A stretch of 22,870 bases of DNA from positions 1-22,870 of the IMG/VR virus record IMGVR_UViG_3300015371_000194; one strand, written 5' to 3'. The notes beneath the pieces were generated by a model, which ran no database searches, was not told the DNA's origin, and saw only the letters and a list, made by a program, of their open reading frames with translations. A program made the translations under genes and the position numbers. This DNA comes from a virus. Of the stretch, positions 688-22,870 are shown piece by piece; positions within the stretch are counted from its first letter, which is position 1, and each line of letters opens with the position of its first letter.

Positions 688-948
688 ATGCCCAAGCCGC
701 TCACCCCTATCGACCCGCGCATCGCCGAGGCGATGCAGGCCATCGGCACCATCGTCGAGAACGACGACCTCGACCACGCCGACTTCGAGCCCATCGCCAT
801 CGCCCTGGAGCAAATGGCGCGGATCACCCGCAACATCGCCCTGGCCCGGGCGTACCGCCTCGCCGGCCGCATCGAGCTGGCGGTGCGCTTCGAGAACGCC
901 AACGAGCGCCTGATCGGCTCGATGCCGGAGGGCGCGCTGTGGTCCTGA
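688..948 (+). CDS. Small hypothetical protein, 86 aa
   Basis: The first gene of the plus-strand cluster. I do not recognise it. The ATG at 688 is chosen over the much longer open frame from 79 because GAAGGA lies about 10 nt upstream, a promoter-like motif lies at 609-625, and the extension is low-complexity sequence over the repeat array. The protein is mostly helical in appearance, with an acidic stretch (IVENDDLDHADFEP) followed by two helix-like segments rich in Ala, Arg and Leu. No signal peptide or membrane segment is seen. The next gene starts 10 nt before this stop, so the two are probably translationally coupled. Confidence 0.65.
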   Translation: MPKPLTPIDPRIAEAMQAIGTIVENDDLDHADFEPIAIALEQMARITRNIALARAYRLAGRIELAVRFENANERLIGSMPEGALWS

Positions 949-1178
949 ACCCTGCCGCCGACGGCATCCAGGCCGCGCGCCGCGAAGCCCGGATCATCCA
1001 CCTGCGCGAGGAGGCGCTCGGCTATCTCGCCCAGCTCACCACCTACTGCGAGAACGACATTCCCTGCGAAGCGACCTGGGGCGACATCGAGTGGCAGGCG
1101 GACATCAACCGCCAGCTGCGCGAGCTGCGCGACCGGGCGCTGCGCCTGGGCGAGTACGCGCCCCCGCCGCAGGCGTGA
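939..1178 (+). CDS. Small hypothetical protein, 79 aa
   Basis: Starts at GTG 939, overlapping the preceding gene by 10 nt. I do not recognise it. It is a charged, alpha-helical protein with two Cys (around residues 37 and 43) and a Trp-containing middle (TWGDIEWQADIN), then an amphipathic Arg/Leu/Glu-rich helix near the C-terminus. Length, charge and coupling suit a small early phage protein, but nothing identifies a function. The repeat array before the next gene begins about 20 nt after its stop. Confidence 0.6.
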   Translation: MVLNPAADGIQAARREARIIHLREEALGYLAQLTTYCENDIPCEATWGDIEWQADINRQLRELRDRALRLGEYAPPPQA

Positions 1179-1198
1179 CGCCCGGCGCCCTTGGCCGC

Positions 1199-1273
1199 CA
1201 GGGAGACGAATTGCCAGGGAGACGACTTGCCCGAGACGAATTGCCACCGACACGAATTGCAGGAGACGAATTG
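1199..1273 (+). repeat. Tandem array of a GAGACGAATTG repeat
   Basis: Five copies of an 11-mer, GAGACGAATTG or one mismatch from it, start at 1203, 1219, 1233, 1249 and 1263. Spacing alternates 16, 14, 16, 14. A sixth copy (GACACGAATTG) lies at 1294-1304 inside the next gene. Exact copies recur at 1613-1623, 6536-6546 and 6581-6591. The last tandem copy supplies the Shine-Dalgarno-like AGGAGA and abuts the ATG of the next gene. Operators, or duplicated translational leaders, are the two readings I favour. Confidence 0.75.
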
Positions 1274-1624
1274 ATGCCCATCCACATCCGCGTGACACGA
1301 ATTGACGAGCACGGCTTCTGGGGCCGCTGCCCACACCCGCCGGCCGGCCTCGCCGGCAGCATCGGGACCATCCTCCAGGTGACCACGGACCCCGGCGACG
1401 CCGACCTGCTGGTCTACACGGTGCGCGTCGAGCATCCCGACCCGGCCGATGGCGAGACGGATTGGGAGCTGCTGGAGCACGAGTTCACGGTCCTCGGCCT
1501 GGACGGCGATGCGCCGGCCGCGCCGGTTCCGGCTTGGCTGATGCGCCTTTGGAATGGTATACTTACCTATTGGCATCGTTCGCGCCTGTCGCGCGGCGGC
1601 CAGCAGCCAGGAGAGACGAATTGA
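1274..1624 (+). CDS. Hypothetical protein, 116 aa
   Basis: ATG 1274 follows AGGAG (1261-1265) with an 8-nt spacer. The in-frame TTG at 1271, inside the repeat motif, could also serve, as TTG apparently does for the next gene. The protein is not recognised. Its N-terminal two thirds look beta-rich (IRVTRIDEHGFWGRC, then GTILQVTTD and LLVYTVRVEH) and could be a small beta-barrel. A Trp-rich helix-like C-terminus (AWLMRLWNGILTYWH) might associate with membrane or a partner, but is short for a membrane anchor. The stop TGA overlaps the next gene's TTG start. Confidence 0.6.
   Translation: MPIHIRVTRIDEHGFWGRCPHPPAGLAGSIGTILQVTTDPGDADLLVYTVRVEHPDPADGETDWELLEHEFTVLGLDGDAPAAPVPAWLMRLWNGILTYWHRSRLSRGGQQPGETN
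1555..1563 (+). promoter_or_regulatory. Possible extended -10 promoter inside a gene
   Basis: TGGTATACT fits an extended -10 element (TGN followed by TATACT at 1558-1563). It lies in a locally AT-rich patch near the 3' end of the preceding gene, about 58 nt before the TTG-started gene at 1621. No good -35 hexamer is seen. It could give an internal transcript start for the downstream genes. Confidence 0.3.
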
Positions 1625-1821
1625 CGAGCCCAGCCCTTCCCCGCATCCCGATCCCGCATCGCATCCGCACCATCCAGGTGCCGGTGTTCGCCAAGGAGGA
1701 CGTGTTCTACGTGGCCATCTCGAAGGCCGAAGCCCGGCGGCTGCTCGACCTCGGCGTGTTCGACCTGATCGACAACGGCAACGGCTGGGCCAGCATCGAG
1801 GCGAAGGGACAGAACTCGTGA
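1621..1821 (+). CDS. Small hypothetical protein with TTG start, 66 aa
   Basis: The start is read as TTG 1621, overlapping the preceding TGA. AGGAGA (1610-1615) lies at a good distance and there is no better in-frame ATG or GTG until well into the conserved-looking part. The start sits within an exact GAGACGAATTG repeat (1613-1623). The protein has a Pro/Ile/Arg N-terminus, then IQVPVFAKEDVFYVAISKAEARRLLDLG broken by charged residues and a C-terminal Trp segment. This beta-beta-alpha look suggests a small folded domain, but I do not recognise it. It overlaps the next gene by 4 nt (GTGA). Confidence 0.55.
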   Translation: MTSPALPRIPIPHRIRTIQVPVFAKEDVFYVAISKAEARRLLDLGVFDLIDNGNGWASIEAKGQNS

Positions 1822-2009
1822 GCACCGTCACCTACACGATCCGCAAGACCCCGCACGAGCGCGAGTGGGCGGCCCGCTTTCACCAGGACGGCGTGTTCAT
1901 GCCGACCTGGACCGTGTTCGAGACGGATCGGCCGGCCGCCGAGGCCAGCGCGCAGGCCACGGTCGCCTGGGCGGCCGCGCGTGACAAGGCGGCGCTGCCG
2001 CAGCCCTAA
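1818..2009 (+). CDS. Small hypothetical protein, 63 aa
   Basis: Starts at GTG 1818 in a GTGA overlap with the preceding stop, the typical coupling geometry of this cluster. It reads as a beta-rich N-terminal half (TVTYTIRKTPHERE, then FMPTWTVFETDRP) and an Ala-rich helix at the C-terminus (EASAQATVAWAAARDKAA). I do not recognise it. It is the last gene before a short intergenic region carrying a promoter-like motif and a double hairpin, so it probably ends the first sub-operon. Confidence 0.6.
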   Translation: MSTVTYTIRKTPHEREWAARFHQDGVFMPTWTVFETDRPAAEASAQATVAWAAARDKAALPQP

Positions 2010-2026
2010 TTTGCTAGACATTCCCC
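2010..2026 (+). promoter_or_regulatory. Conserved promoter-like motif, copy 2
   Basis: TTTGCTAGACATTCCCC begins immediately after the TAA of the upstream gene. It shares TTTGC, AC, T and CCC positions with the motifs at 609 and 4644. The -10-like hexamer would be GACATT, the weakest of the three. It precedes the double-hairpin element and the gene at 2107. Confidence 0.4.
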
Positions 2027-2027
2027 T

Positions 2028-2087
2028 GGGTGACACAAGGCGCTTCGGCGCCTTGCGGTCGTGACAGCGGCGCCCATTCCGGGCGCC
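2028..2087 (+). promoter_or_regulatory. Double-hairpin intergenic element, copy A
   Basis: Hairpin 1 has a perfect 8-bp stem (CAAGGCGC 2036-2043, GCGCCTTG 2048-2055) closed by a C(TTCG)G tetraloop, an exceptionally stable RNA fold. Hairpin 2 has a 7-bp stem (GGCGCCC 2069-2075, GGGCGCC 2081-2087) with loop ATTCC. The whole unit recurs at 3219-3275 with identical first-stem bases but a different loop. Neither copy has a T-run. Role as attenuator, RNA-stability element or processing site is inferred. Confidence 0.65.
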
Positions 2088-2106
2088 CGACCAGGAGACG
2101 AATCCG

Positions 2107-2403
2107 ATGGCCCAGCACTACAGCGACCCCGCGCGCGAGCCCAGCCCGTACACCCTGCCCGACATCGAGACGTTCGAGATCACCGCCACGGGCACGCCCT
2201 GGGAGGGCGCCGATGGCGAGCGCCTGGAGCCCGGCTGGTACTGGTGGTCGTGCACGCCCGGCTGCCTGCCCGATTCCGAGCCCTTCGGCCCCTACGACAC
2301 GGAGGCCGACGCGCTGGCCGATGCCCAGATCGACCTGGGCGGCGATGACGACGACGACGACGACCAGGAGCTGCCGCAGGCGGCTCGGAAGATGTGGAGC
2401 TGA
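2107..2403 (+). CDS. Acidic Trp-rich hypothetical protein, 98 aa
   Basis: ATG 2107 is preceded by AGGAGA (2093-2098), part of a GAGACGAAT repeat variant, and by the double-hairpin element. The protein is strongly acidic, with a Trp/Tyr cluster (GWYWWSCTPGC, around residues 43-53) that includes two Cys, and a run of seven Asp near residue 80. The Asp run comes from a short (GAC/GAT)n repeat. DNA-mimic proteins of phages can look like this (small, acidic, no catalytic motifs), but that is only a suggestion. It is separated from the next gene by 3 nt. Confidence 0.6.
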   Translation: MAQHYSDPAREPSPYTLPDIETFEITATGTPWEGADGERLEPGWYWWSCTPGCLPDSEPFGPYDTEADALADAQIDLGGDDDDDDDQELPQAARKMWS

Positions 2404-2406
2404 CCG

Positions 2407-2892
2407 ATGAAGAACACGAATACCCGCGCCCTCGCTGCCGCCAACGCCGTCCAGGTCGAACACCGCCGCGCGTGGCGCCAGCTCACGGACACGGCGATCA
2501 CGCCCGAGACCGCCCTCGACCACATCCGCACCTTCCTGGAGCAGGCCGCGCCGGCGGGGATGCAGAGCCGGGCCATCACCCCGACGCTGCACGGCGTCCA
2601 GGTCGGCGTCGATCACGGCTTCGCCGTCGGCGCCACGCTGTTCGTGCAGATCACGCAGCGGCTCGACGACGCGGTCGTGAACCCCGACAGCATCCTGATC
2701 GAGCCCACCGACAAGCACGAGGTCGCGGTGCCCTGCTCGGTGGTCGCCACGGTCAGCTGGTCGGGCACGACGCGCTCGATGAGCGAAGCGGCCGCGAGCA
2801 TCTTCCTCTACCAGCAGCTGGTCGCCCTCGGCGCGGCCGTCGAAGCGCGCTTCGGCCACGGCGTGCGCATCACGTCGCGGGTGACCCGCTGA
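2407..2892 (+). CDS. Hypothetical protein, 161 aa
   Basis: The longest gene of the plus-strand cluster. It begins at ATG 2407, just after the preceding TGA, and its own stop overlaps the next ATG (TGATG). Residues 1-60 look helical (ALAAANAVQVEHRRAWRQL). The middle looks like alternating beta strands (VQVGVDHGF, GATLFVQITQRL, EVAVPCSVVATVSW), followed by a helix (EAAASIFLYQQLVALGAAVEARFG). This is a compact alpha/beta profile with no nucleotide-binding or metal motif that I can see. I do not recognise the family. Confidence 0.65.
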   Translation: MKNTNTRALAAANAVQVEHRRAWRQLTDTAITPETALDHIRTFLEQAAPAGMQSRAITPTLHGVQVGVDHGFAVGATLFVQITQRLDDAVVNPDSILIEPTDKHEVAVPCSVVATVSWSGTTRSMSEAAASIFLYQQLVALGAAVEARFGHGVRITSRVTR

Positions 2893-3212
2893 TGACGAGT
2901 GCCGAGTTCAAGGCGTGGTTGAAGGACTACGACCGGCGCCGGCAGGAACACGCGGAAGCCCGCTGGGCGCTCCACGCCCGGCCCGAGGCCGCAGCCGCGA
3001 CGTTGCCCCAGGACGAACCAGCGCCCCCGGCCGGGCCGGTACCCCCGGCGCCCCCGGCCGGCGCGCCCCCGGCGCCCCCGGCGCCCCTGGCTGCCCCTTG
3101 GACGGCGGCCGGGGGCGCCCCCGGGCCGGCCTTGGCCGAACCGCCGCCCCTGCCACCGCTGCCGCCCCCGCTGCCGCAGCCCCCACCGCTGCCCTGGGAG
3201 AGGGCGGCCTGA
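2892..3212 (+). CDS. Small protein with proline-rich C-terminal tail, 106 aa
   Basis: Starts at ATG 2892, overlapping the preceding stop by one base. The first 30 residues form a charged helix (EFKAWLKDYDRRRQEHAEAR). From about residue 40 onward it is almost only Pro, Ala and Gly, with PPAP, APPAPPAP and PPLPPLPPP runs, so that part should be disordered. The DNA beneath is a CCCCCGGCG-type low-complexity expansion, also present in non-coding parts of the window. The tail may therefore be a repeat expansion rather than a selected domain. The helical N-terminus makes me think the gene is real. Confidence 0.5.
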   Translation: MTSAEFKAWLKDYDRRRQEHAEARWALHARPEAAAATLPQDEPAPPAGPVPPAPPAGAPPAPPAPLAAPWTAAGGAPGPALAEPPPLPPLPPPLPQPPPLPWERAA

Positions 3213-3218
3213 TCACCC

Positions 3219-3275
3219 GGGTGACCACAAGGCGCGCAGGCGCCTTGCGGTCGTGACAGCGCCCATGCCGGGCGC
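3219..3275 (+). promoter_or_regulatory. Double-hairpin intergenic element, copy B
   Basis: The second copy of the element at 2028-2087. Stem 1 is CAAGGCGC (3228-3235) with GCGCCTTG (3240-3247) and loop GCAG instead of TTCG. Stem 2 is GCGCCC (3259-3264) with GGGCGC (3270-3275) and loop ATGCC. The stems are kept while the loops differ, so the structure seems to be what is conserved. It ends just before the AGGAG (3277-3281) of the next gene. Confidence 0.65.
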
Positions 3276-3290
3276 CAGGAGAACGCCTCG

Positions 3291-3599
3291 ATGATGACCG
3301 TGAAGATCCTCCCCGTCGACCCCCCCACGAACGACAAGGTGGCTGACGCCGAACTGCACTTCGGCGCCGGCCCGCTGGACGGCTTGAAGCTGGTCGGCTT
3401 CAGCATCTGGACCCGCCGCACCGCGCCGGCCGGCTACAGCATCACCTACCCGGCCCGCACCTACAGCGTGAACGGCGAAGCCCGGAGCTTTGCGCTGCTG
3501 CGGCCGGTCACCGACACCAAGGCGCACGACGCGCTGCGCGAGCTGATCCTGGCGGCCTGGGCCGAACACCGCGCCGCCGAGCAGGAGGCCGGCCGATGA
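3291..3599 (+). CDS. Hypothetical protein, possibly SpoVG-like fold, 102 aa
   Basis: ATG 3291 (or the adjacent ATG 3294) has AGGAG 9 nt upstream. The sequence pattern is a small hydrophobic domain: GLKLVGFSIWTRR, then YSITYPARTYSVNGEARSF, then LLRPVTDTKAHDALRELIL. The order 'beta strand, P-A-R-x-Y with a glycine hairpin, P-V/I-T, long helix' reminds me of SpoVG-type nucleic-acid-binding proteins, which phages do carry. The resemblance is from memory and weak, and a profile search would decide it. The gene overlaps the next one by 4 nt (ATGA), so the two are probably co-translated. Confidence 0.6.
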   Translation: MMTVKILPVDPPTNDKVADAELHFGAGPLDGLKLVGFSIWTRRTAPAGYSITYPARTYSVNGEARSFALLRPVTDTKAHDALRELILAAWAEHRAAEQEAGR

Positions 3600-4051
3600 A
3601 CGCCGACCGCGAACAGATCCTCCGCGATGTCCTCACCTGCGCGGTCGAGGGCGGCATCAACTACTGGGCGAACGAGCCCAGTGAGAAGGGCGAGCTGCAG
3701 GTCGAGCGCATCGACCGAGGCCAGGAGGCGACCGTCGAGCGCATCGTGTTCAACGTGGCCGCGGTTGAGGAATGCAGCGGCGCCTCGGTGCGCAAGGGCT
3801 TCACCAATGGCGCGCGGACGAACAGCACCGTGGTCACGCTCGATGCCGCCGCGCTGCAGCGGGCGCTGCGCGCGATCATCGCCGGCACGGTGACGTTCGG
3901 CGGCAAGCCGCTCGGGCCGAACAGCACGATGCGCAAGCTGGCGCCGCAGCTGGTGTTCGCCAAGGACCGGGACGATGTCCCGGACTACGACGCGGGCGAC
4001 GCCGACAACCTGCTCCAGGCCGCCCTCTTCGGGGATGTGATCTATGGCTAA
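3596..4051 (+). CDS. Conserved-looking phage hypothetical protein, 151 aa
   Basis: ATG 3596 overlaps the preceding stop (ATGA). The N-terminal DVLTCAVEGGINYWAN and the C-terminal DADNLLQAALFGDVIYG resemble, in my memory, a family of uncharacterised proteins in phages of high-GC bacteria. No function is known to me. Middle segments include ERIVFNVAAVEEC and a Ser/Thr-rich linker, then LQRALRAIIAGTVTFGGKP. The DADxxxQAALFG end and several conserved-looking acidic residues might form a site, but no catalytic motif can be assigned. It overlaps the next gene by 8 nt. Confidence 0.65.
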   Translation: MNADREQILRDVLTCAVEGGINYWANEPSEKGELQVERIDRGQEATVERIVFNVAAVEECSGASVRKGFTNGARTNSTVVTLDAAALQRALRAIIAGTVTFGGKPLGPNSTMRKLAPQLVFAKDRDDVPDYDAGDADNLLQAALFGDVIYG

Positions 4052-4256
4052 CCCAGTGATGTCGGAAGCCGAGGCGAACGCACGCCACCGCCGCGCCTGT
4101 GGACGCAAGGCGGTCACGGCGCTGCAGGCGGCGCTGGCCGCCGCGCAGACCGAGGACTGGTATCTGGTCGAGACGATGGTCGAGCAGGTCCAGCGACAGC
4201 TGCAGGAAGTGCTCTGGCGGACCGTGAAGGAGGCACCACCATGCCGGACACGATGA
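4044..4256 (+). CDS. Small helical hypothetical protein, 70 aa
   Basis: ATG 4044 lies inside the end of the preceding gene (8-nt overlap), and the gene's end overlaps the next start by 16 nt. The sequence is almost entirely helix-forming: AEANARHRRACGRKAVTALQAALAAAQ, broken by EDWYLVETMVEQVQRQLQEVLW. It could be a small coiled-coil or two-helix hairpin. I do not recognise it, and the length gives little to work with. Confidence 0.55.
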   Translation: MANPVMSEAEANARHRRACGRKAVTALQAALAAAQTEDWYLVETMVEQVQRQLQEVLWRTVKEAPPCRTR

Positions 4257-4429
4257 CCATCGACGAGCGGCTGCGCGCGACCGCCGCAGCCCTCAAGACC
4301 ATCGGCGCCCTGGCCGAGAACCCACACTGGACGGCGTCGCGGCGCTGGGAGATTGCGCGGCTGGCGCAGCACGCGCGGCAGCAGCTCGACGCCGCGCAGA
4401 CGGCGCTCCGGGACCAGGAGGCGATGTGA
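4241..4429 (+). CDS. Small helical hypothetical protein, 62 aa
   Basis: ATG 4241 is preceded by GAAGGAG-type purines (around 4228-4233). It overlaps the preceding gene by 16 nt and the next ATG by one base (TGATG). Like its neighbour it reads as two amphipathic helices (IDERLRATAAALKTIGALAE and RRWEIARLAQHARQQLDAAQ) around a short HWT turn. The similar layout of this protein and the one before it might reflect an old duplication or an interacting pair. That is a guess from pattern only. Confidence 0.55.
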   Translation: MPDTMTIDERLRATAAALKTIGALAENPHWTASRRWEIARLAQHARQQLDAAQTALRDQEAM

Positions 4430-4677
4430 TGGCCGACACCCCCAAGGAGATCCAGTTGCGCCCGGCCGGGATGACGATCACGGTCACGCCGACGAAGGCG
4501 CGGCCGCACGACTTCGCGCTGCTGTGGATCACTGACGCGCACTCGGATGAGGACCAGCCGGCGCACCTACTGAGCCGCGCCGATGTGGAACGGCTGATCG
4601 AGGCCGCGACCAAGGCGCTCGCCCTGATGACGGCCAGCCCTGCTTTGCCCTACAATCCCCAGGGAGACACGCGATGA
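4429..4677 (+). CDS. Small hypothetical protein, 82 aa
   Basis: I take ATG 4429, which overlaps the previous TGA; GTG 4426 is the alternative. The N-terminal half looks beta-rich (EIQLRPAGMTITVTPTKA, FALLWITDA), and the second half has LLSRADVERLIEAATKALALM, a helix. The alternation resembles small phage proteins of unknown role. Its last codons contain the third copy of the promoter-like motif (4644-4660), so coding and regulatory sequence overlap. It overlaps the next gene by 4 nt (ATGA). Confidence 0.6.
   Translation: MADTPKEIQLRPAGMTITVTPTKARPHDFALLWITDAHSDEDQPAHLLSRADVERLIEAATKALALMTASPALPYNPQGDTR
4644..4660 (+). promoter_or_regulatory. Conserved promoter-like motif, copy 3
   Basis: TTTGCCCTACAATCCCC has the best -10-like hexamer of the three (TACAAT, 4651-4656). 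It ends 13 nt before the ATG of the ribbon-helix-helix gene. A start near 4663 would give a very short leader containing AGGGAGA. It sits inside the coding end of the preceding gene, yet keeps 11 of 17 bases in common with the two copies at 609 and 2010. Confidence 0.45.
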
Positions 4678-4895
4678 CGAAACGGAAAGCGCCCGGCACC
4701 CACCTGCCACGCGGCGGTCCCAGGCCGGGCTCGGGCCGGCCGTCGGTGTATCGGGGCAAGACCACGAGCCTGATCACCCGGGTGCGGCCACAGACGATGG
4801 AGAAGCTGCGGGGCATCGCCGCGCACCAGGGCATGTCGGTCAGCGATGCCCTGGAGCTGGTGGTCGAGCGGGCTGATCCTGGGGTGGCAGTATGA
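4674..4895 (+). CDS. Ribbon-helix-helix DNA-binding protein with basic N-terminal arm, 73 aa
   Basis: The last gene of the plus-strand cluster, starting at ATG 4674 with AGGGAGA upstream. Residues 1-27 are a flexible basic arm with PRGGPRPGSGRPS, similar to AT-hook-like GRP segments common in small phage DNA-binding proteins. Residues about 32-67 fit a ribbon-helix-helix domain: a beta strand (TSLITRVRP), helix 1 (TMEKLRGIAAHQG) and helix 2 (SVSDALELVVERA). Such proteins act as dimers and repress their own or neighbouring promoters. The repeated motifs in this cluster are plausible targets, but nothing shows this directly. A terminator-like hairpin follows 56 nt after the stop. Confidence 0.75.
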   Translation: MTKRKAPGTHLPRGGPRPGSGRPSVYRGKTTSLITRVRPQTMEKLRGIAAHQGMSVSDALELVVERADPGVAV

Positions 4896-4951
4896 CGACG
4901 GCCGGCCGGCGCCCTGGCGCCCGGCCGGCGCGCCCGTGTGCCGAAACCGAG

Positions 4952-4978
4952 GCCCGACGTTGCCCGACGTCGGGCTTT
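4952..4978 (+). terminator. Intrinsic terminator-like hairpin after the plus-strand cluster
   Basis: A perfect 9-bp stem, GCCCGACGT (4952-4960) and ACGTCGGGC (4967-4975), with loop TGCCCG is followed by TTT. It stands after the last plus-strand stop and before the convergent minus-strand operon. The T-run is short, which is usual in high-GC genomes. Confidence 0.65.
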
Positions 4979-5220
4979 CGCGCGGGGGGGCGCCCCTACG
5001 GTATGACCGGGGGGGCGCGCCGCGCCTACGCCAAGCGGGCGACTGCGCAGCGGACGGTGTGGGGGGCGCCGGCGCCCGGGCGCCCGGCCGGCGCCCCCCA
5101 GGCCGGCCGCCAAGGCGCCACGTTGCCCCACGTCGCGCTTCGGGCCGGGGGCGCGCCCCTACCCCCGGCCCGGCGGCCGCGCCGCTCCTACGCCAACGTC
5201 GCGGCTGCTCGAGCCGCGTG
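4979..5220. other. Convergent intergenic region, GC low-complexity DNA
   Basis: Between the two converging operons lies DNA built from GGGGGGCGC, GCGCCCGG and CCGGCCGG blocks. It includes a 21-bp segment (5183-5203) repeated exactly at 17939-17959, and near its end an inverted repeat CGCGGCT-GCTCG-AGCCGCG (5200-5218) next to the minus-strand stop. That last hairpin could terminate the minus-strand transcript. An arginine/alanine/proline-rich open frame spans it, but I do not believe it is a gene. Confidence 0.5.
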
Positions 5221-6567
5221 CTACGGGACGGCGAAGTGCCGGCCCTCGACGGCCAGCGGTCCACGGATGGGACCGGCGACGCCGGGCTCGGGGGGCGCTG
5301 GCTTCTCGCCACGTTCCGCCTCGATGACATGGAACGTGTGATCCAGCGCAAGGTTCCGGCGGGTGTCCCAGCCCGGGCCGTCGCTGGGCAGCGGGCCGAG
5401 CCGGCAGACCTCCGGGCACCACTCCCCGATCAGGTACGCGCTGACCACGTCGATCCGCTGCGCCATCGACGTGCCGTCCCAGGGCGTCGGCCAGATGCCA
5501 GCGGGCAGGCCGAGCCGGGGGTTGCCGATCAGGTATGTCTCGATGGCCTCGGCCGCCATCACGGTCTGATCCCTGGGAATCTGGTCGACTGTCGGCTGTG
5601 GCATCTCTGGCTCCGGTGGCAGGGGCTCAGGTGGCAGGGGGCCGGGCTCCGGTGGCAGGGGCTCTGGTCCCGGCTCTGGGCCAGGGCCAGGGCCGGGCTC
5701 CGGCTCCGGCGGCTTCACATCAGAAGTGAGATTTTTTTGGGGCGCGGTCAGGTCGACCGACACCAGCCCCAGGTCGCCCGACGGCGTCATGTAGGCCACG
5801 CGCACGAGGTGCGGGTCGCCGCCCAGGATCGCCAGATCCCAGTCGAACGCTGATCCGCCGCTGCGGACCACCGGCCAGCCGGTCCCGGCCCGGGCCAGGA
5901 GACTCCCCCACTCACAGAGCGTCAGGTCGCCGTCGTCGAGGACCATCCCGACGACCAGGACCGCGCCCGTCCACAGCGCGACCGGGAAGGTGCACGCGTG
6001 CCCCGGGACGCTCAGGTCGACGGTCGGCTGGTCCGGGGAGCTGCGCCCGAGCACCCGGCCGTAGGGCAGCGTGTCCCAGACCAACGTCTGCGACGACCAG
6101 CGCGGCCGCGTGCCCGGTCCCGGCGCCGGGCCGCTCGCGTCGGTGCAGCCGGCCAGCCGTTCGAAGCGCAGCGCGCCCGACGCGAGGTCGCGCACGACGA
6201 GGCTGCCGCCGGCCGACAGCTTCGGTTCGAAGGTGGACGGAAAGGTGCGCTCCGGCTTGCCGTTCACGTAGGCCGTCACACCCACGCCTCGGTCCGGGGT
6301 GAAGGCGGCCCGGCCGGCGGCCGCATCGAGGTCGCCGTCGTTGGCGCCCACGTAGCCGCACGCGAAGCCGTCCTGCTCCATGTAGCTGCCGGCGCCGTCT
6401 TGCGACCGCGCGAGCAGCGCCTGCGGCCCGATCCAGCACGGGTCGTGGCCGCCGGGCAAGCGCGTGACGACCCGGCCCGTGGCCGCTTCCACGATGGCGA
6501 CCGACAGCGGGCCGCCGCCATAGCCGGCCGTGAAGGAGACGAATTGACCGTCGGGAGAGAATCGCAT
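5221..6567 (-). CDS. Putative beta-propeller protein with Pro/Glu/Gly linker, 448 aa
   Basis: The last gene of the late operon. ATG 6567 is chosen because MRFSPDGQFVSFTAG is a typical first blade of a TolB/WD40-like (PD40) propeller. GGGAA lies upstream and the preceding gene ends 26 nt before. Longer versions run into that gene. Residues 1 to about 280 show repeated strands with Gly/Asp turns (SVAIVEAATGRVVTRL, SLVVRDLASGALRFERL). Residues about 284-330 are a P-E-P-G repeat linker, presumably extended. Residues 331-448 form a separate unrecognised helical domain containing WPTPWDGTSMAQRID and two Cys (EWCPEVC). There is no signal peptide. Position suggests a tail-tip or surface-binding protein; this is inferred. 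An AT-rich 13-mer (5724-5736) sits at the linker boundary. Confidence 0.7.
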   Translation of the reverse strand: MRFSPDGQFVSFTAGYGGGPLSVAIVEAATGRVVTRLPGGHDPCWIGPQALLARSQDGAGSYMEQDGFACGYVGANDGDLDAAAGRAAFTPDRGVGVTAYVNGKPERTFPSTFEPKLSAGGSLVVRDLASGALRFERLAGCTDASGPAPGPGTRPRWSSQTLVWDTLPYGRVLGRSSPDQPTVDLSVPGHACTFPVALWTGAVLVVGMVLDDGDLTLCEWGSLLARAGTGWPVVRSGGSAFDWDLAILGGDPHLVRVAYMTPSGDLGLVSVDLTAPQKNLTSDVKPPEPEPGPGPGPEPGPEPLPPEPGPLPPEPLPPEPEMPQPTVDQIPRDQTVMAAEAIETYLIGNPRLGLPAGIWPTPWDGTSMAQRIDVVSAYLIGEWCPEVCRLGPLPSDGPGWDTRRNLALDHTFHVIEAERGEKPAPPEPGVAGPIRGPLAVEGRHFAVP

Positions 6568-6591
6568 CTTGAGTTCCCGGGAGACGAATTG
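6536..6591. repeat. Pair of GAGACGAATTG repeats flanking a start codon
   Basis: Exact copies at 6536-6546 and 6581-6591 lie on either side of the ATG (6565-6567) of the minus-strand propeller gene, 45 bp apart. In the minus-strand sense they read CAATTCGTCTC. Here they cannot act as Shine-Dalgarno sequences because they are inverted, which favours a DNA-binding site or a mobile short repeat. Confidence 0.6.
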
Positions 6592-6593
6592 AC

Positions 6594-7721
6594 TCAGCGC
6601 GGGATGCCGGGCGCCTCGCCCAGCACCTGTCGACCGAACCGATCCACCAGCCACTCGCGCGGCCCCTTGGCCTTGGCGGTGCTCGTGCCCGGCGCGCAGG
6701 TCGTCCGCCAGCACTGGACGAGGGCGCCGTCGAAGCCGGTCATCTGGGAGAGCAACGTGTCCCAGCGCCAGCCTTCGTTCAGCTCGATGGCGGCGTTGTC
6801 GACCGAGCCCTGCAGGCCGAGCGCGACGGTCATGGCCTCAACGCCGCTGGGCATCAGGCCGGAGTAGACCCGCACGACCTTGTCGAAGTTCGCGTCGCGC
6901 ACGGGCGAGCCTTCGTGGCCGGCGTTGCGGTAGCCGAGCACGTCGCCGGTCGGCCACAGCCGCGCCCCGGAGACGAATGCCTCGGCGCACTTCCGCTGCT
7001 GCGGGCCGAGCGGCAGCGCGTCGAGCCCGTCGTTGCTGTGGAAGATGTCCACCGTGCAATCGAAGAGCCGATTCAAGAGCGCCATCGTGTGGAAGATGGC
7101 GGGGTCGGCGCAGCGCCGGCCGGGCTCGTCCTGTTCGGCCGCGCCGATGGGCTCCTGGTTGTTCGCGGGCCGCTTGAACCGTTCGGTGTGGGCGTAGATC
7201 TCGCGGACCCTTCTCACCATGTTCCAGGGGTCGCGGCCCCGATCCAGGTGCACGCTCGTGTGGTCGCGGCCGGTGTACTTGTCCGATTCGTCGCCCTCCA
7301 GCGTGGCGCCGAACGACGTCGGGCCGTTCAGCCGGTCGGCAAGGTCGGCGCAGCGGTCCGGGTCCAGCCGGCCGCCCTGCGTCTCGTGGTCGGCTTCGTT
7401 GGCCACCTCGCGCAGCACGACGACCGGATACGCCTGGGCGATGCGTTCGACTTCGTCGGTGTGCGCTTCGAGGTCGTAGCCGGTGCCGGCTTCGGTGTGG
7501 TACGCCAGATAGCCGTTCAGGCCGCGCGCCTGCAGCTCGCCCAGGTAGGTGGGCAGGCGCTCGTAGACGTGGTGGATCTCCTGGCCGCACCACGGCAGCG
7601 CGCCGCAGAAGGTGCGGACGATGTTCCAGCCGAGGGCCACGGCTTCATCGAGGGCCGGCCGATACTCGTGGCCGGGCCGGAGCGGGGAGAGCATCGACGC
7701 GCCAACAGCGCGGTGCAACAT
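6594..7721 (-). CDS. Putative TIM-barrel glycoside hydrolase, 375 aa
   Basis: ATG 7721 has GGAGG 5 nt upstream. The order of motifs suggests a (beta/alpha)8 barrel of the GH clan-A kind: GWNIVRTF (residues 31-38) as strand 1, NGYLAYHTEAGTGYD as strand 3, and VVVLREVANEADH (100-112) as strand 4. In that clan the residue after the strand-4 Asn is the acid/base, so N108-E109 is the candidate. Later strands may be EPIGAAEQDE and TVDIFHSNDGLD. The nucleophile Glu cannot be fixed by eye. Candidate role: cutting host capsule, exopolysaccharide or cell-wall glycan at the tail tip. It has no signal peptide, and holin or endolysin genes are not seen nearby. Alternative: a catalytically dead binding domain. 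Confidence 0.65.
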   Translation of the reverse strand: MLHRAVGASMLSPLRPGHEYRPALDEAVALGWNIVRTFCGALPWCGQEIHHVYERLPTYLGELQARGLNGYLAYHTEAGTGYDLEAHTDEVERIAQAYPVVVLREVANEADHETQGGRLDPDRCADLADRLNGPTSFGATLEGDESDKYTGRDHTSVHLDRGRDPWNMVRRVREIYAHTERFKRPANNQEPIGAAEQDEPGRRCADPAIFHTMALLNRLFDCTVDIFHSNDGLDALPLGPQQRKCAEAFVSGARLWPTGDVLGYRNAGHEGSPVRDANFDKVVRVYSGLMPSGVEAMTVALGLQGSVDNAAIELNEGWRWDTLLSQMTGFDGALVQCWRTTCAPGTSTAKAKGPREWLVDRFGRQVLGEAPGIPR

Positions 7722-17867: not shown

Positions 17868-17962
17868 AGGCGCGACGTTGGCGTCTACGCGACGCGGGCG
17901 GCCGGTCGGGTCGCTACCCCGGCCCCCCAGGCGGTCGTCGCTCCTACGCCAACGTCGCGCCT
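17868..17962 (-). promoter_or_regulatory. 17-bp inverted repeat between tube and chaperone genes
   Basis: Arms at 17868-17884 and 17946-17962 are perfect inverted repeats with 61 bases between them. The arm sequence contains CGCGACGTTGGCG and its complement. A second, imperfect GC hairpin lies at about 17828-17862. Both lie between the highly expressed tube gene and the chaperone gene, so a partial terminator or RNA-stability structure is likely. The right arm is part of a 21-bp segment shared with the convergent region at 5183-5203. Confidence 0.55.
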
Positions 17963-17976
17963 CGGCGCGGCCGCGT

Positions 17977-18525
17977 TCAGGCGGCCGCTTCCGCTCGGGG
18001 CGCCGGCCTGGGCGCGCCGCCCGGCCGCTGCTGCCCGCCGTAGGCCCGGGTCGCTTCTTCGCCTTCGCGCCCCGACAGCGGCACGACGGGGAACACGCCG
18101 CTGGTCTTGCTGTCGAGCCGCAGCTCCACCGTGAACGTGGTGATGCCGTCGACCGACGCCTGCGGGCCCGAGTAGCTGAGCACCGAGCACGTCCCGGAGA
18201 TGAGCGGCATCCCTTCGTCCAGGCCCGCCGGGCCGTACTCGTAGAGCAGGTTCGTCATGCCTTCCAGGGGCGCGAAGAACAGCTCCGACTCCGGCGACCA
18301 CTTGCCGCCGAGCGAGATGCTGCGGGTCGAGAAGCCCGGGATGATCGTCTTGTTCGGCCGGCGGAAGGTGGTCGCATCGAGTTCGTCGGCATCGCTCGAC
18401 GGCTCGACCGAGTCGAGGAAATCGCTGATGTCGTCGATGACTGCCGGCGGCGTCGGCCCGGCCGACGTCGACAGCCCGAAGTAGGTGTGGATGCCGGCAA
18501 CGGGGTTGCCCGTCTTGATCGCCAT
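17977..18525 (-). CDS. Major tail tube protein, 182 aa
   Basis: ATG 18525 has GAGG about 8-10 nt upstream. Its size, position between the tail terminator and the chaperone genes, and motifs fit a siphovirus tube protein: an early Ile/Asp stretch (VIDDISDFLDSVEPSSDADELDATTF), then RSISLGGKWSPESELFF and ASVDGITTFTVELRLDS as beta strands. The subunit would stack as hexameric rings around the tape measure. The last 25 residues (from GREGEEATRAYGGQQ) are Ala/Pro/Arg-rich and probably disordered, an add-on to the fold. The gene order and pattern make this call firm even though sequence conservation in this family is low. Confidence 0.82.
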   Translation of the reverse strand: MAIKTGNPVAGIHTYFGLSTSAGPTPPAVIDDISDFLDSVEPSSDADELDATTFRRPNKTIIPGFSTRSISLGGKWSPESELFFAPLEGMTNLLYEYGPAGLDEGMPLISGTCSVLSYSGPQASVDGITTFTVELRLDSKTSGVFPVVPLSGREGEEATRAYGGQQRPGGAPRPAPRAEAAA

Positions 18526-18567
18526 GTTCGTGACCTCGTCGCGTGTGGGAACAGGTGGGGTCGACGC

Positions 18568-18819
18568 TCAGGAGCGCAGCCCACTCGGGGAAGCCGGCAC
18601 CTCGGCATCGAGTGCGCCGTCAACGAACTGATTGCAGCCTCGGCACCAAAACCGCTGCCGCGTGAGCGTGCTGGCGTCGACGCGGCTGTCGACCGGGTGC
18701 GCGCACTCGGCCGGGACCGCCGCCAGCAGCCCATCGAGGCAGGCGGCGACCACGTCGGCCTGCATCCGCACCGCCTCCAGCTGCTGCCGCGCCGCCAGGA
18801 TCTGCAGCCGCAGGTTCAT
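18568..18819 (-). CDS. Small putative zinc-binding protein, 83 aa
   Basis: ATG 18819 overlaps the tail terminator stop as ATGA. I recognise only a pattern. A helical N-terminus (LQILAARQQLEAVRMQADVVAACLDGLL) is followed by C39-x-H41 and C59-x2-C62 in the context RFWCRGCNQF, a likely Cys-His-Cys-Cys zinc site. Small zinc proteins of this kind are commonly found among tail genes of phages from high-GC hosts. Their role is unknown to me. It precedes the tube gene by 42 nt. Confidence 0.7.
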   Translation of the reverse strand: MNLRLQILAARQQLEAVRMQADVVAACLDGLLAAVPAECAHPVDSRVDASTLTRQRFWCRGCNQFVDGALDAEVPASPSGLRS

Positions 18820-19292
18820 ACCGTCACCGTCACGCGGTAGATGTCCGGGCGATGGAATGTGACGACGCCCGCGAGGTCGTCCGTGAACACCGCGCCGCCG
18901 GGGTCGAAGCGCCAGATCGCCTGCCGGTACGGCGGCAGCGGCACTTGATGGCTGTCGACCACCATCCGAATGCGGTCGCTGATGCGATGGCACTCGTAGT
19001 CGCCCTTGAGCTGACTGGACGAGCGCACCTGCAGCGTGACCTCGTAGCCGAACCCGCGCATCCGGTCGAAGGGCCGCGCCATCGCGCCCTCGATGCGCAC
19101 CAGGGGGAACGGCGTGTTGGCCGGCACGTTGGTGTAGACCCGGCCGGCAATCAGGGCGGTCAGCTGCGGGTCGTCCTTGATCCACCCGATGATCTGCACC
19201 TCCAGCAGCTCCAGGACCGACAGCACCGAGACGGCCGGCGGCAGCACGGTCGTGGGCCAGGGCACCGACGTCGTCGTGGTCCGGGTCGTCAT
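18816..19292 (-). CDS. Tail terminator / tail completion protein (DUF3168-like), 158 aa
   Basis: ATG 19292 overlaps the preceding stop (ATGA) and its own stop overlaps the next ATG. After a Thr/Pro N-terminus the body fits the terminator fold: VLELLEVQIIGWIKDDPQL, then GRVYTNVPANTPFPLVRIEG and GYEVTLQVRSSSQ, and a helix HRISDRIRMVVDS. The 'P-x-x-P-Y/F-V-R-I-E' and 'L-x-V-R/W-S' features are typical of DUF3168 proteins, which cap the finished tube and join it to the head. Position after the gp10-like gene is as expected. The N-terminal Thr run makes the first 20 residues less certain. Confidence 0.75.
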   Translation of the reverse strand: MTTRTTTTSVPWPTTVLPPAVSVLSVLELLEVQIIGWIKDDPQLTALIAGRVYTNVPANTPFPLVRIEGAMARPFDRMRGFGYEVTLQVRSSSQLKGDYECHRISDRIRMVVDSHQVPLPPYRQAIWRFDPGGAVFTDDLAGVVTFHRPDIYRVTVTV

Positions 19293-19687
19293 GCCGCCCG
19301 CACCGCCGCTTCCAGCTGCTGCTTCACCTGCCGCATCCGCGTCGGCAGATAGGCGCGCTCCAGTTCCGCCGCCGGCCGGATGAACGGCTGCGCCTCGGCG
19401 TGCACGGTCCCGTACTCCACGAAGTGCGCGTACTGCGCGGGGTCGGTGCGCGAGCCATCGCCCTGGCGGACGCCGATGATGTAGACCAGCCCCGTCACCT
19501 TGGTGGCTTCGATGGCCTTCTCCAGCGCGTGCGTGCGCTTCGGCGCGAGGCGCTTCGCCCGGGTCACGATGGCCTTGGCGCCCTTCGCGGCGGCCTGCTC
19601 GTTCAGCTTGCGCAGGAGGTACGGCGTGACCCGGAACTTCCGGGCCAGATCGGCGCCGCCGCGCAGGGAGATGCGGACCTCGATCAC
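19289..19687 (-). CDS. HK97 gp10-like head-tail joining protein, 132 aa
   Basis: GTG 19687 overlaps the preceding TGA (GTGA) and begins VIEVRISLRGGADLARKF. The pattern matches the HK97-gp10 family: an N-terminal strand, then a helix LLRKLNEQAAAKGAKAIVTRAKRLAPKRTHALEKAI, and VTGLVYIIGVRQG followed by YAHFVEYGTVHAEAQPFIRPA. The last motif (H-F-V-E-Y-G-T-x-x-x-x-A-x-P-F-x-R-P) is diagnostic. These proteins act at the head-tail interface or as tail-completion partners. A much longer open frame upstream in the same frame is an artefact of GC content over the connector and capsid genes. Confidence 0.88.
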   Translation of the reverse strand: MIEVRISLRGGADLARKFRVTPYLLRKLNEQAAAKGAKAIVTRAKRLAPKRTHALEKAIEATKVTGLVYIIGVRQGDGSRTDPAQYAHFVEYGTVHAEAQPFIRPAAELERAYLPTRMRQVKQQLEAAVRAA

Positions 19688-20067
19688 GTCACGCGCTCCA
19701 CGGTGAGCAGGTTCAACTCGCGGCCGCGCTCGTTCACGTTCATCACCTGCAGCAGGTCGAACGTCCGCACGCGGTCCTGATACGGGTCGTTGATCTGCAC
19801 CCGGTGCTCGACCTTGATGGTCGGCGTGTAGTGCAGACGAATCTGGTGGGTCGCCTCGGCGTACTGCGTGCCCAGGCGCACCTTCTCGGTGGCGTCGAGC
19901 GGCTGCAGCGTGCACGGGACGTCGCGTTCGATGACCCCCTCCACTTCCGACTGGCCGCCGTTCGGCAGGTCGACGGTGGTTGACCCGATCACCGTCATGC
20001 GGTGAATCAGCTGGCCGGCCTTGAGCCCGCCGCCGACCAGTCCGCCCGCGCCGTAGGTGATCGGCAT
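19684..20067 (-). CDS. Head closure / head-tail adaptor protein, 127 aa
   Basis: ATG 20067 lies 3 nt after the connector stop. Features of the head-tail adaptor (SPP1 gp16-like, Phage_H_T_join) family are visible: AGQLIHRMTVIGSTT near the N-terminus, a central beta segment (DVPCTLQPL, HQIRLHYTPTIKVEHRVQI), and the typical end RTFDLLQVMNVNERGRELNLLTVE. In this family the last part reads 'x-F-x-I-x-x-V-x-N-x-x-E-R-x-R-E-L-x-L-x-x-V-E'. The protein stacks on the connector ring and stops DNA leaking from the filled head. It shows perfect GTGA coupling to the gp10-like gene. Confidence 0.85.
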   Translation of the reverse strand: MPITYGAGGLVGGGLKAGQLIHRMTVIGSTTVDLPNGGQSEVEGVIERDVPCTLQPLDATEKVRLGTQYAEATHQIRLHYTPTIKVEHRVQINDPYQDRVRTFDLLQVMNVNERGRELNLLTVERVT

Positions 20068-20070
20068 CGC

Positions 20071-20727
20071 TCACGCCAGGATGGCGACCCGATACGGTTC
20101 GAGCAGCTGCTGCACGTTGACCGGCAGCATGTCGACGCGCGACTCGACCCGGAAGCTGACCACCGGGTCTTCTTCGCGGTGCAGGAAGTAGGTCGCCATC
20201 AGCTTCCGCATCGCTTCGACCAGCGCCGCCGGCACCTTGCTGGTGTCGTCGCTGTAGCCGATCACGTACTCGATGACCAGCTCGCCCTCGGGCGGCCAGT
20301 CGGTCAGGATCAGCCGCGCCGGTTCGCTGCGCTCGATGCGGTAGCTCGGGAACGCGACGCCGTTGATCGTGAACGTCCGAATGCTCTGCAGCGGCGCGGC
20401 GCGGCGCAGGTCGATGCCGGCCGCGCCGCTGCTGGAGCCATAGCCCGAGTCGTAGGCGACGAGGTTCCGCACGAAGTAATCCGCGTGCGACTCCGAGGAC
20501 CGGGTCCCGTAGCCCGCTGCCGACCCGACGCCCACGTAGGCTTCGTGCCGCCACGTCTGGGTGCGCAGGCCGCGCTCCAGGTAGGCTTCGACCAGATCTT
20601 CGGCCGCCCGGATCTGCCCCTCGATCACGGCGTCCTGGGTGTCGTAGGCGAACTGGAGGTATTGCTTGGCCTCCGCCGCTGTCCACCAGGGCGTCGTGGG
20701 GGCTTCGAGCAGGAACGCCGTCGCCAT
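20071..20727 (-). CDS. Head-tail connector protein (gp6-like, phiE125 gp8 family), 218 aa
   Basis: ATG 20727 lies 3 nt after the capsid stop. The opening TTPWWTAAEAKQYLQ, then DAVIEGQIRAAEDLVEAYLERGL, matches the Phage_gp6 connector family: two helices that form a dodecameric ring under the portal. The middle includes RTFTINGVAFPSYRI and ARLILTDWPPEGELVIEYVIGYSDD, with VPAALVEAMRKLMATYFLHRED-like sequence, also typical. The length is near the 190-220 aa of the phiE125-gp8 subgroup. Gene position directly after the capsid gene supports it. Confidence 0.85.
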   Translation of the reverse strand: MATAFLLEAPTTPWWTAAEAKQYLQFAYDTQDAVIEGQIRAAEDLVEAYLERGLRTQTWRHEAYVGVGSAAGYGTRSSESHADYFVRNLVAYDSGYGSSSGAAGIDLRRAAPLQSIRTFTINGVAFPSYRIERSEPARLILTDWPPEGELVIEYVIGYSDDTSKVPAALVEAMRKLMATYFLHREEDPVVSFRVESRVDMLPVNVQQLLEPYRVAILA

Positions 20728-20730
20728 CGA

Positions 20731-22107
20731 TCAGCGTCCGTTCCCGGCCTTCTCGCGCTCGCTGCGGCCGCGCGCCGCCTCGTCGCCGCTGCCGCCGGGC
20801 AGCCGCCGCGTGCCGCCGTTGCCGCCTTCCAGCGCGCCCGCGCCGGTCGGGGTCGCCAGCCCGCTCGTCAGGCCGGTCACCGTGCCGAACGCCGCCGGCC
20901 GGTAGACGGCCAGCATCCCGCGCGTCTCGGCGCGGATCGCCACGAGGTTCTTGATGAAGAAGTCCGCGTGGCTGTTCGACGCCTGGACGACGATGCCCTG
21001 CCGGCGCCAGTACTGGCCGCCGACCTTGAACGCGCCGACCAGCCCGGTGCCCTGCACCATGCCGGTCGTCGGCACGACCTTGAGCCCCCACAGCGAGGGC
21101 GACGGCAGGTCGCTGAACATCCCGGGCCCGTAGTACACGCCGTTCTGGTCCTTGAGCGTGACCACGCCCGCCCAGTCGGCGGGGTTCAGCACGACCGCGT
21201 CGGGCATCAGGAACTGCGTGGTCATGATCGTCATGGCCTGCCGGAACACGACGTCGGCGGTGTTCTCGCCCGCGCCCAGCGCCAGGGCCGGCGACAGCCC
21301 GGGCCGGGTCAGGATGCCGTGCAGGTGCGGCGCGACGCCGCTGCCGTTGATCACCTCGTCCTCGACCTTGAGGTCGACGAACAGCCGCAGACGCGCGTCG
21401 ATGTAGGCGCGGATCTGCGAGACGTCCGCCAGCATTTCCTCCGACACCGGCAGCCACGTGGCGATCTTGCGGACCGTCTCGGTGAGCGCATCGAACGTCA
21501 GGGCCGACTCGGGCTTGACGCCGCCCTCGGCGACCGCATCGGCCGCGTTGGTGGACGACTTCTCCACCATGTAGGTGATGGTCACGGCGTCGGTCGTGCC
21601 CTGCGCGAACAGGTCGACGACCTTCGGCACCTGATAGCCGGGCTGCAGGATGCCGGGCAGCAGCTGCGGCACGAGCAGCTTGCCGCCGCTGGCCACGTCC
21701 TCGGTGAGCGTGGCCGCCAGCAGTTCGACGGGCGGCGTCGCCCAGGCCGAGCCCTTCATGTGGCCGGCCTTGATGAAGTCCATCGCGGCCGACTCCGCGA
21801 ACTGCTGGCCCAGGCTCTTGACGCTCCGGGTGAGCGCGGTCGACTGGCCGGGGCTCACCAGCGTTGCGCGCGCTTCGATCATCGCGGCGAGTTCGGCGCG
21901 CACGTCGGTGGCCGATGAGGCGGCGGCGATCTTGTCGCGCTGCTCCCGGGCGGTGGCGAGGTAGCCGTCGATCTTCGTGCGTTCCTCGGCGGTGAGTTCG
22001 CGCTTCTCGGTGTCGGCGGTCTGCATCGCGGCCTGCGCGGCATCAACCGCGGCGTTCAGGTCCTTGTGCATCTCGCCGACGTCGCGGCTGTTGACGATGG
22101 CCGTCAT
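20731..22107 (-). CDS. Major capsid protein, HK97 fold, 458 aa
   Basis: ATG 22107 has AGGAG about 7 nt upstream. Residues 1-110 are a charged coiled-coil delta/scaffold domain (DVGEMHKDLNAAVDAAQ, REQRDKIAAASSATDVRAEL) expected to be removed by the protease upstream. The rest fits HK97 gp5: PQLLPGILQPGYQVPKVVDL as N-arm, VAEGGVKPESALTFDALTE in the E-loop region, VRKIATWLPVSEEMLAD, EVINGSGVAPHLHGIL, AVVLNPADWAGVV and GLKVVPTTGM. The final part (after about residue 415) is Gly/Ala/Arg-rich and probably disordered, unlike HK97. Whether this tail is exposed or cleaved is unknown. Confidence 0.93.
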   Translation of the reverse strand: MTAIVNSRDVGEMHKDLNAAVDAAQAAMQTADTEKRELTAEERTKIDGYLATAREQRDKIAAASSATDVRAELAAMIEARATLVSPGQSTALTRSVKSLGQQFAESAAMDFIKAGHMKGSAWATPPVELLAATLTEDVASGGKLLVPQLLPGILQPGYQVPKVVDLFAQGTTDAVTITYMVEKSSTNAADAVAEGGVKPESALTFDALTETVRKIATWLPVSEEMLADVSQIRAYIDARLRLFVDLKVEDEVINGSGVAPHLHGILTRPGLSPALALGAGENTADVVFRQAMTIMTTQFLMPDAVVLNPADWAGVVTLKDQNGVYYGPGMFSDLPSPSLWGLKVVPTTGMVQGTGLVGAFKVGGQYWRRQGIVVQASNSHADFFIKNLVAIRAETRGMLAVYRPAAFGTVTGLTSGLATPTGAGALEGGNGGTRRLPGGSGDEAARGRSEREKAGNGR

Positions 22108-22146
22108 GGTCTGCTCCTGGTCGTTCGGGGGTCGGCGGGGACGGTC

Positions 22147-22869
22147 TTAGACAGACCGCAGCCGCTGGAGTTCGCTGCGTCGGGCCTGATCGGTGAGCTG
22201 GTCGCTGAGGATCGCCAGCGTGGTGTCGAGGCTCTGGATGCCGTCCACGAGGCCGGCGGCCTTCGCGTCCTCGGCAGCCAGCACGCGGCCTTCGCCGTAG
22301 CCCTGGCGCACGGCGTCCGTAGACACCCCGCGCCCGGCCGCGACGTCGGCCACGAAGCTCGCATAGTGCGCGTCGACGCGCCGCTGCATCGCCGCCTGCG
22401 CGTCCTTGGACAGCGGCGCGAGGTCGGTGGCTTCGGTCTTGAACCGGCCGGCCGACACCACGGTGTGCTGGACGCCCTTGTCGGCCCAGAACGCCGACAT
22501 GTCGGCATGGACGCCGAACACGCCGATGCTGCCGGCTTCGCCGCTCGGGGTGAGCAGGATGCGCGAGGCGGCGCTGGCGATCCAGTAGCCGCCGCTCGCC
22601 GCCAGCCCGCTGATCACCGCCGTCACCGGCTTGATGGCCGACAGCGCCCGGACCGCCGCCCACGTCTCATGCACGCCGTAGACGCTGCCGCCGCCGGAGT
22701 CGATGTCGAGGACGACCTGCTTGACGCCGGGCGCCTGGGCGATGGCGCCGAGCGTGGCCTGGAAGTCGACCAGCCCGCGCGCGCCGAAGATGGCCGCCAG
22801 CCCGGTGGCGCGGCGCATCAGGAAGCCGTGCAGCGGCACGACCACCAGGGGCGCGGCCGACCGGGGGTC
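22147..22869 (-). CDS. S49-family head maturation protease, N-terminus beyond the window
   Basis: The frame is open to the right edge; 240 codons are visible, so the gene is cut here. GTG 22845 could be a start, but the strand pattern LVVVPLHGFLM suggests more N-terminal residues. The S49 (SppA/lambda gpC-like) signature is clear. LDIDSGGGSVYGVHE forms the oxyanion loop and AASGGYWIA holds the nucleophile Ser (residue 84 from GTG 22845). TPSGEAGSIGVFGVHAD follows, and SAGRFKTEATDL supplies the Lys base (136). The C-terminus carries a helical tail (LAILSDQLTDQARRSELQRL). It should cleave the capsid scaffold domain. It precedes the capsid gene by 39 nt. Confidence 0.92.
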   Translation of the reverse strand, partial: DPRSAAPLVVVPLHGFLMRRATGLAAIFGARGLVDFQATLGAIAQAPGVKQVVLDIDSGGGSVYGVHETWAAVRALSAIKPVTAVISGLAASGGYWIASAASRILLTPSGEAGSIGVFGVHADMSAFWADKGVQHTVVSAGRFKTEATDLAPLSKDAQAAMQRRVDAHYASFVADVAAGRGVSTDAVRQGYGEGRVLAAEDAKAAGLVDGIQSLDTTLAILSDQLTDQARRSELQRLRSV

Positions 22870-22870
22870 G

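Follow-up and report, generated by a model that had tools for sequence, protein, structure and literature searches.

A short repeat at predicted gene starts of an uncultured phage and its likeness to start-associated sequences

Introduction

Start-associated repeats have been described in a few actinobacteriophage groups, and their function is not known. These start-associated sequences (SAS) are asymmetric, occupy the position of a ribosome-binding site (RBS) and are conserved beyond the Shine-Dalgarno (SD) bases (PMC3203893; PMC7302621). The SAS of the Cluster K mycobacteriophages reads GGGATAGGAGCCC (PMC3203893) and that of the Cluster EF Microbacterium phages GGGAAAGGACCCC (PMC7302621); for neither is the function known (PMC3203893; PMC7302621). 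Short repeats of other kinds are the stoperators of Cluster A, asymmetric 13-14-bp sites that are dispersed outside promoters, run in the same direction as transcription and serve as binding sites of a known repressor (PMC6550527), and the 17-bp dyad repeats of Cluster O, which are palindromic and number more than 30 per genome (PMC4351075).

The following sections concentrate on an 11-bp repeat, GAGACGAATTG, in an IMG/VR virus record of 22,870 bases (GC 70.7%), the whole of which is referred to as the window. 'Early' and 'late' are used by position, denoting the small plus-strand genes and the structural minus strand, respectively, and start codons are predictions throughout. The repeat is real; its function is read from position and sequence, and all results rest on one viral population. 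As an example from an uncultured phage that combines tandem expansion with complementary copies at a late start, it would offer a compact system in which ribosome, DNA-binding or RNA-pairing action can be tested.

The motif resembles SAS in its short asymmetric form, in the RBS position of some of its copies, in conservation well past the SD bases where an SD is present, in a mostly uniform orientation, in the association with non-structural genes, and in its absence or rarity in bacterial genomes. With the Cluster K SAS, of which rare opposite-orientation copies occur away from starts, it also has AGGAG in common, at two copies. Its sequence is different, and so is its distribution: two exact copies and one partial copy are start-associated, compared to 10-19 in SAS phages, and a five-copy tandem array, one in-gene copy, loss of the SD in some copies and two antisense copies around a late-strand start are peculiar to it. 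Measured against the at least ten dispersed, start-associated copies that characterize a SAS, six exact and nine near copies were found, five of them in one array, in a record that is a genome fragment. In a SAS, one orientation that matches the genes predominates; here all nine copies are on the plus strand, but two of them lie over minus-strand genes. Open RNA at the starts is an added feature relative to the SAS of Clusters K and EF, and the extended 17-bp inverted repeat (ESAS) of SAS systems was not identified here. What goes beyond the SAS pattern of these two clusters is the array, the copy within a gene and the pair of antisense copies. Like the Cluster A stoperators, the motif is a short, asymmetric, dispersed site; like the Cluster O repeats, it is short, over-represented and of unexplained role, with some copies in genes near their 5' ends, but it is asymmetric and rare where those are palindromic.

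Gene layout of the record

The minus strand of the window carries a siphovirus-like structural module. Its head maturation protease and major capsid protein were recognized by family search and its tape measure protein by tblastn to phage records; the module also has a tail fibre with a chaperone domain. Small genes, mostly without known function, occupy positions 688-4895 of the plus strand. A second record, L036 (16,399 bases), very probably represents the same phage, since it is 99.8% identical to window positions 17976-22870; it extends about 11.5 kb past the window and was obtained from a metagenome that we take to be soil. Positions 4684-6042 of L036 encode a 452-aa ORF that, by eye, resembles a ParB-domain DNA-modification protein.

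Copies of the repeat and their context

The features around the repeat are as follows.

1197-1273, plus strand: tandem array with a 30-bp unit of two copies, about 2.4 repeats, in the 95 bp that separate gene 939-1178 from gene 1274-1624
1203-1213, plus strand: exact copy 1 of GAGACGAATTG, in the array; its context is strongly SD-like and its TTG 1211 shares the frame of gene 1274
1219-1229, plus strand: copy 2 (GAGACGACTTG), in the array
1233-1243, plus strand: exact copy 3, in the array; the SD has been lost and TTG 1241 shares the frame of gene 1274
1249-1259, plus strand: copy 4 (GACACGAATTG), in the array; SD lost
1263-1273, plus strand: exact copy 5, abutting ATG 1274; AGGAG SD, TTG 1271
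1274-1624, plus strand: 116-aa ORF with the array at its start; no family
1294-1304, plus strand: copy 6 (GACACGAATTG), inside gene 1274, reading V-T-R-I-D
1534-1563, plus strand: putative sigma-70-like promoter (TTGGCT-18-TATACT) upstream of copy 7, a consensus match only
1613-1623, plus strand: exact copy 7, uniting an SD, the stop TGA 1622-1624 of gene 1274 and the start TTG 1621 of the next ORF
1621-1821, plus strand: ORF of 66 aa starting at the TTG of copy 7; no family
2095-2105, plus strand: two-mismatch relative (GAGACGAATCC) just before ATG 2107
5221-6567, minus strand: ORF of 448 aa; copies 8 and 9 lie on the two sides of its predicted start
6536-6546, plus strand: exact copy 8, antisense inside ORF 5221-6567, over the codons CAA TTC GTC TCC (QFVS)
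6581-6591, plus strand: exact copy 9, antisense, in the gap that separates ATG 6567 from the stop of ORF 6594-7721

The six exact copies (1203, 1233, 1263, 1613, 6536 and 6581) are all found on the plus strand, at the positions given in an earlier note on this DNA. That note counted three one-mismatch copies; the number is four (1219, 1249, 1294 and 1454), of which the one at 1454 (GAGACGGATTG) was set aside as ordinary coding sequence (E-T-D-W) that is probably unrelated. The remaining nine near-identical copies follow GASACGAATTG with one further change and, when aligned, have sharp 11-bp borders at which similarity ends abruptly on both sides. Allowing up to two mismatches, 15 matches occur in the window versus 3.58 expected, a number reached by none of 100 shuffles. 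GAGACGAATTG is by far the most over-represented 11-mer of the window (log10 P -21.4); in 100 sequences simulated with a third-order Markov model, the strongest k-mer excess was -8.7. Motif copies account for all but one of the nine AATT tetramers of the window, and L036 contains a single AATT.

The array consists of five copies: a 30-bp unit that contains two copies occurs twice and is followed by a single copy next to ATG 1274. The alternating 16/14/16/14 spacing pointed out earlier is correct and reflects this tandem unit. No stop separates the TTGs at 1211, 1241 and 1271 from gene 1274, whose frame they share. Although this frame is open across the array, a coding repeat was ruled out, because third-position GC is 0.38 in the array versus 0.79-0.97 in the genes of the window. 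Among the seven early copies, two (1263 and 1613) contact a start, four are upstream array units and the one at 1294 lies in a gene. The view that plus-strand copies end exactly at start codons holds for the copy at 1263, which abuts ATG 1274, and has to be modified for that at 1613, whose last three bases are the TTG itself (1621-1623). Both combine an AGGAG SD with the conserved CGAATTG, and at both the bases GAG ACG AAT TGA close an upstream frame and overlap the next start; for copy 5, the TGA at 1272-1274 of another frame overlaps ATG 1274. The anti-SD energy is -7.4 kcal/mol at 1263 and 1613, and array units 1 and 2, with an SD-like GGGAG, score -8.2. No SD is present in array units 3 and 4 (1233 and 1249) or at 1294, yet ACGAATTG is kept there. 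Overall, RBS position applies to 1263, 1613 and the partial copy at 2095, the latter in the context AGGAGACGAATCCG-ATG 2107, and not to 1203-1249, 1294, 6536 and 6581. In gene 1274, copy 6 uses the rare codons ACA, CGA and ATT (1.5%, 3.6% and 5.1% of their synonymous sets; synonymous-choice P 1.1e-5).

While the early copies are all sense, the late pair is antisense, over ORFs 6594-7721 and 5221-6567. The two copies indeed flank a minus-strand start in inverted orientation, lying on both sides of ATG 6567, with the qualification that the copy at 6536 is inside the ORF and that this start, which has a weak SD, is a predicted one. The reading Q-F-V-S at copy 8 uses the rare codon CAA. ORF 5221-6567 looks beta-propeller-like by eye (SPDGQFVSFTAG) and had no match in family searches. 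A 45-bp spacing is common to 1249-1294 and 6536-6581; comparison by eye showed no further homology between these segments. Consensus matching found no promoter-like site near the array or before ORF 5221-6567.

RNA structure at the early starts

The predicted folding of the array RNA is weaker than that of 198 of 200 shuffled sequences. By z-scores that compare starts within this window only, the starts at 1274 and 1621 are the first and second least structured among 25 starts, for four choices of the folded stretch. No Rfam family matched at the gathering score, and the searches found neither a structured RNA nor a tRNA.

Searches outside the window

No exact motif copy occurs in 24 capsid-relative records, and L036, including the 11.5 kb beyond the window, has none at up to one mismatch. 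The motif-flanking genes are absent from eleven larger capsid relatives examined in full. Relatives of the motif-flanking ORFs were found neither in viral contigs nor in phage records, for ORF 6594-7721 also not in bacterial genomes, and the search for relatives of ORF 3596-4051 was likewise negative. The capsid relatives (27-40% identity) are spread over several phyla. A wide occurrence of the motif in bacteria, a question raised for the host in the earlier note, was not observed: ten genomes holding capsid relatives contain 11 copies of GAGACGAATTG in 41.5 Mb, the background level, and paired copies in 794 bacterial genomes are as rare as a reversed-pattern control. A host-derived interspersed repeat was rejected on the counts in these bacterial genomes.

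Among viral sequences, the paired 11-mer matches only two unrelated contigs, where it encodes V-D-G-D-E-L repeats, and a looser three-copy pattern matches 37 contigs in other sequence contexts and spacings. An array common to other viruses was therefore rejected, the two paired-motif contigs being coding repeats and none of the 37 looser matches showing this array. The 16-mer AGGAGACGAATTGATG occurs in 14 other viral contigs with one copy per record, mostly directly before an open frame; this string is therefore in RBS position elsewhere as well.

Interpretation of the repeat

The motif may be a phage-specific start-associated sequence, a SAS-like element that has been tandemly expanded, a tentative reading to which we assign a probability of about 0.4. 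It is favored because the copies at 1263 and 1613 are placed exactly at starts with an AGGAG SD and the overlap of frame end and start, with a partial copy just before ATG 2107; because these two starts are the least structured, the array RNA is open and AGGAGACGAATTGATG takes the RBS position elsewhere; and because asymmetry, RBS position and conservation past the SD are also traits of known SAS. Against the SAS-like reading stand the two antisense copies among nine, the SD-less copies at 1233, 1249 and 1294, the last of which lies in a gene at three rare codons, and the many plus-strand starts, the majority, that have no motif. As for conservation of the sites, no relative shows it, none with the flanking genes having been found. 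The earlier statement that a ribosome-binding role cannot explain all copies is borne out, since two are antisense and three SD-less ones keep ACGAATTG.

As a SAS-like element, the early-strand motif would act as a compact translation-initiation module made up of an AGGAG-type SD, the fixed spacer ACGAA, and a TTG or a following ATG, with the TGA stop of the previous frame overlapping the start within the module. The motif is found where genes 1274 and 1621 begin. Before gene 1274, the module would have grown to five tandem units, which would hold the RNA open and offer the ribosome further SD-like sites to land on; the array may raise or tune ribosome loading. The antisense copies at 6536 and 6581 fall outside the SAS-like reading and may represent a later spread or sites for a second factor.

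A possible, though doubtful, alternative is a DNA operator or roadblock. The motif would then be recognized, as an asymmetric site, by a DNA-binding protein of the phage, which would bind the array and the copies to either side of ATG 1274 and of ATG 6567 and so control early and late transcription together. Such a site would work on either strand, and the operator reading agrees with the copy pairs straddling two opposite-strand starts (1263/1294 and 6581/6536), with the sharp 11-bp borders, with the retention of the coding copy despite its three rare codons, and with the asymmetric dispersed repressor sites known in Cluster A phages (PMC6550527). The promoter searches near the array and before ORF 5221-6567 speak against it; moreover, the copies are few and all on one strand, so that the late-strand ones oppose transcription instead of following it as stoperators do, and no repressor was found. 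The candidate named earlier, ORF 4674-4895, is weakly supported as a ribbon-helix-helix protein: a NikA-like Pfam match exists (E 0.22, sub-threshold), while no phage or PDB relative was found and the low-confidence structure model (pLDDT 63.8) is helical without strands. With a sub-threshold regulator match and no promoter-like site near the array, the earlier proposal of operators that control early and late genes together found no support.

The repeat might also have arisen by neutral local duplication, an ordinary RBS string (AGGAGACGAATTGATG) having slipped into an array and been copied elsewhere by short template switches, without any function. The array can indeed be described as a simple tandem duplication of 30 bp, other phages have the string as an ordinary RBS, and the window contains other short repeat arrays (e.g. 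at 175-327). We nevertheless regard this origin as unlikely, given that two copies are exactly at starts and two straddle another, that copies 5 kb apart are identical across 13-14 bases, and that coding copies retain rare codons. Quite improbable is cross-pairing of RNAs, in which the early transcript carries GGAGACGAAUUGA and the late transcript its complement around AUG 6567, so that a mutual block of ribosome sites would separate early from late translation. Such pairing would account for the sense orientation of the early copies and the antisense orientation of the late ones. Between the two sets, complementarity is perfect over as many as 14 nt and includes the SD and start region, the array RNA is open, and the duplex between array and late RNA is predicted at -70.3 kcal/mol (shuffled mean -46.2, minimum -59.5). 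Complementarity is, however, a trivial consequence of antisense copies of any one repeat, the duplex energies for the starts at 1621 and 2107 are within the shuffled range, and only two late copies exist. A self-complementary early/late switch of RNA alone, each message blocking the ribosome entry of the other, is accordingly given as little credence.

Other repeats and promoter-like sites in the window

Sites matching TTTGCNNNACNATCCC are found at 609-624, 2010-2025 and 4644-4659 (one with a mismatch), upstream of genes 688, 2107 and 4674. They may constitute a shared early promoter type, since two of the three overlap sigma-70-like promoter matches. The second short array, at 175-327 near the left end and upstream of gene 688, is built from CAGAGGACACACCTCTGCCAGTGG-type units with inverted parts. 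In the region 4905-5210, a GC-rich repeat of about 95 bases occurs at 4905-4999 and 5068-5162 (79% identity), and a 27-base element, CGCCGCTCCTACGCCAACGTCGCGGCT, is present at 5018, at 5180 and, between tail genes, at 17936 (17936-17962). Finally, a 36-base leader element is located upstream of genes 2107 and 3291 (2034-2069 and 3226-3261, 92% identity). Both copies carry the perfect hairpin AAGGCGC-NNNN-GCGCCTT and are followed by GTCGTGACAGCG, CCGGGCGCC and CAGGAGA, and the regions of the starts at 2107 and 3291 are the two most structured of the 25 in 100-base folds.
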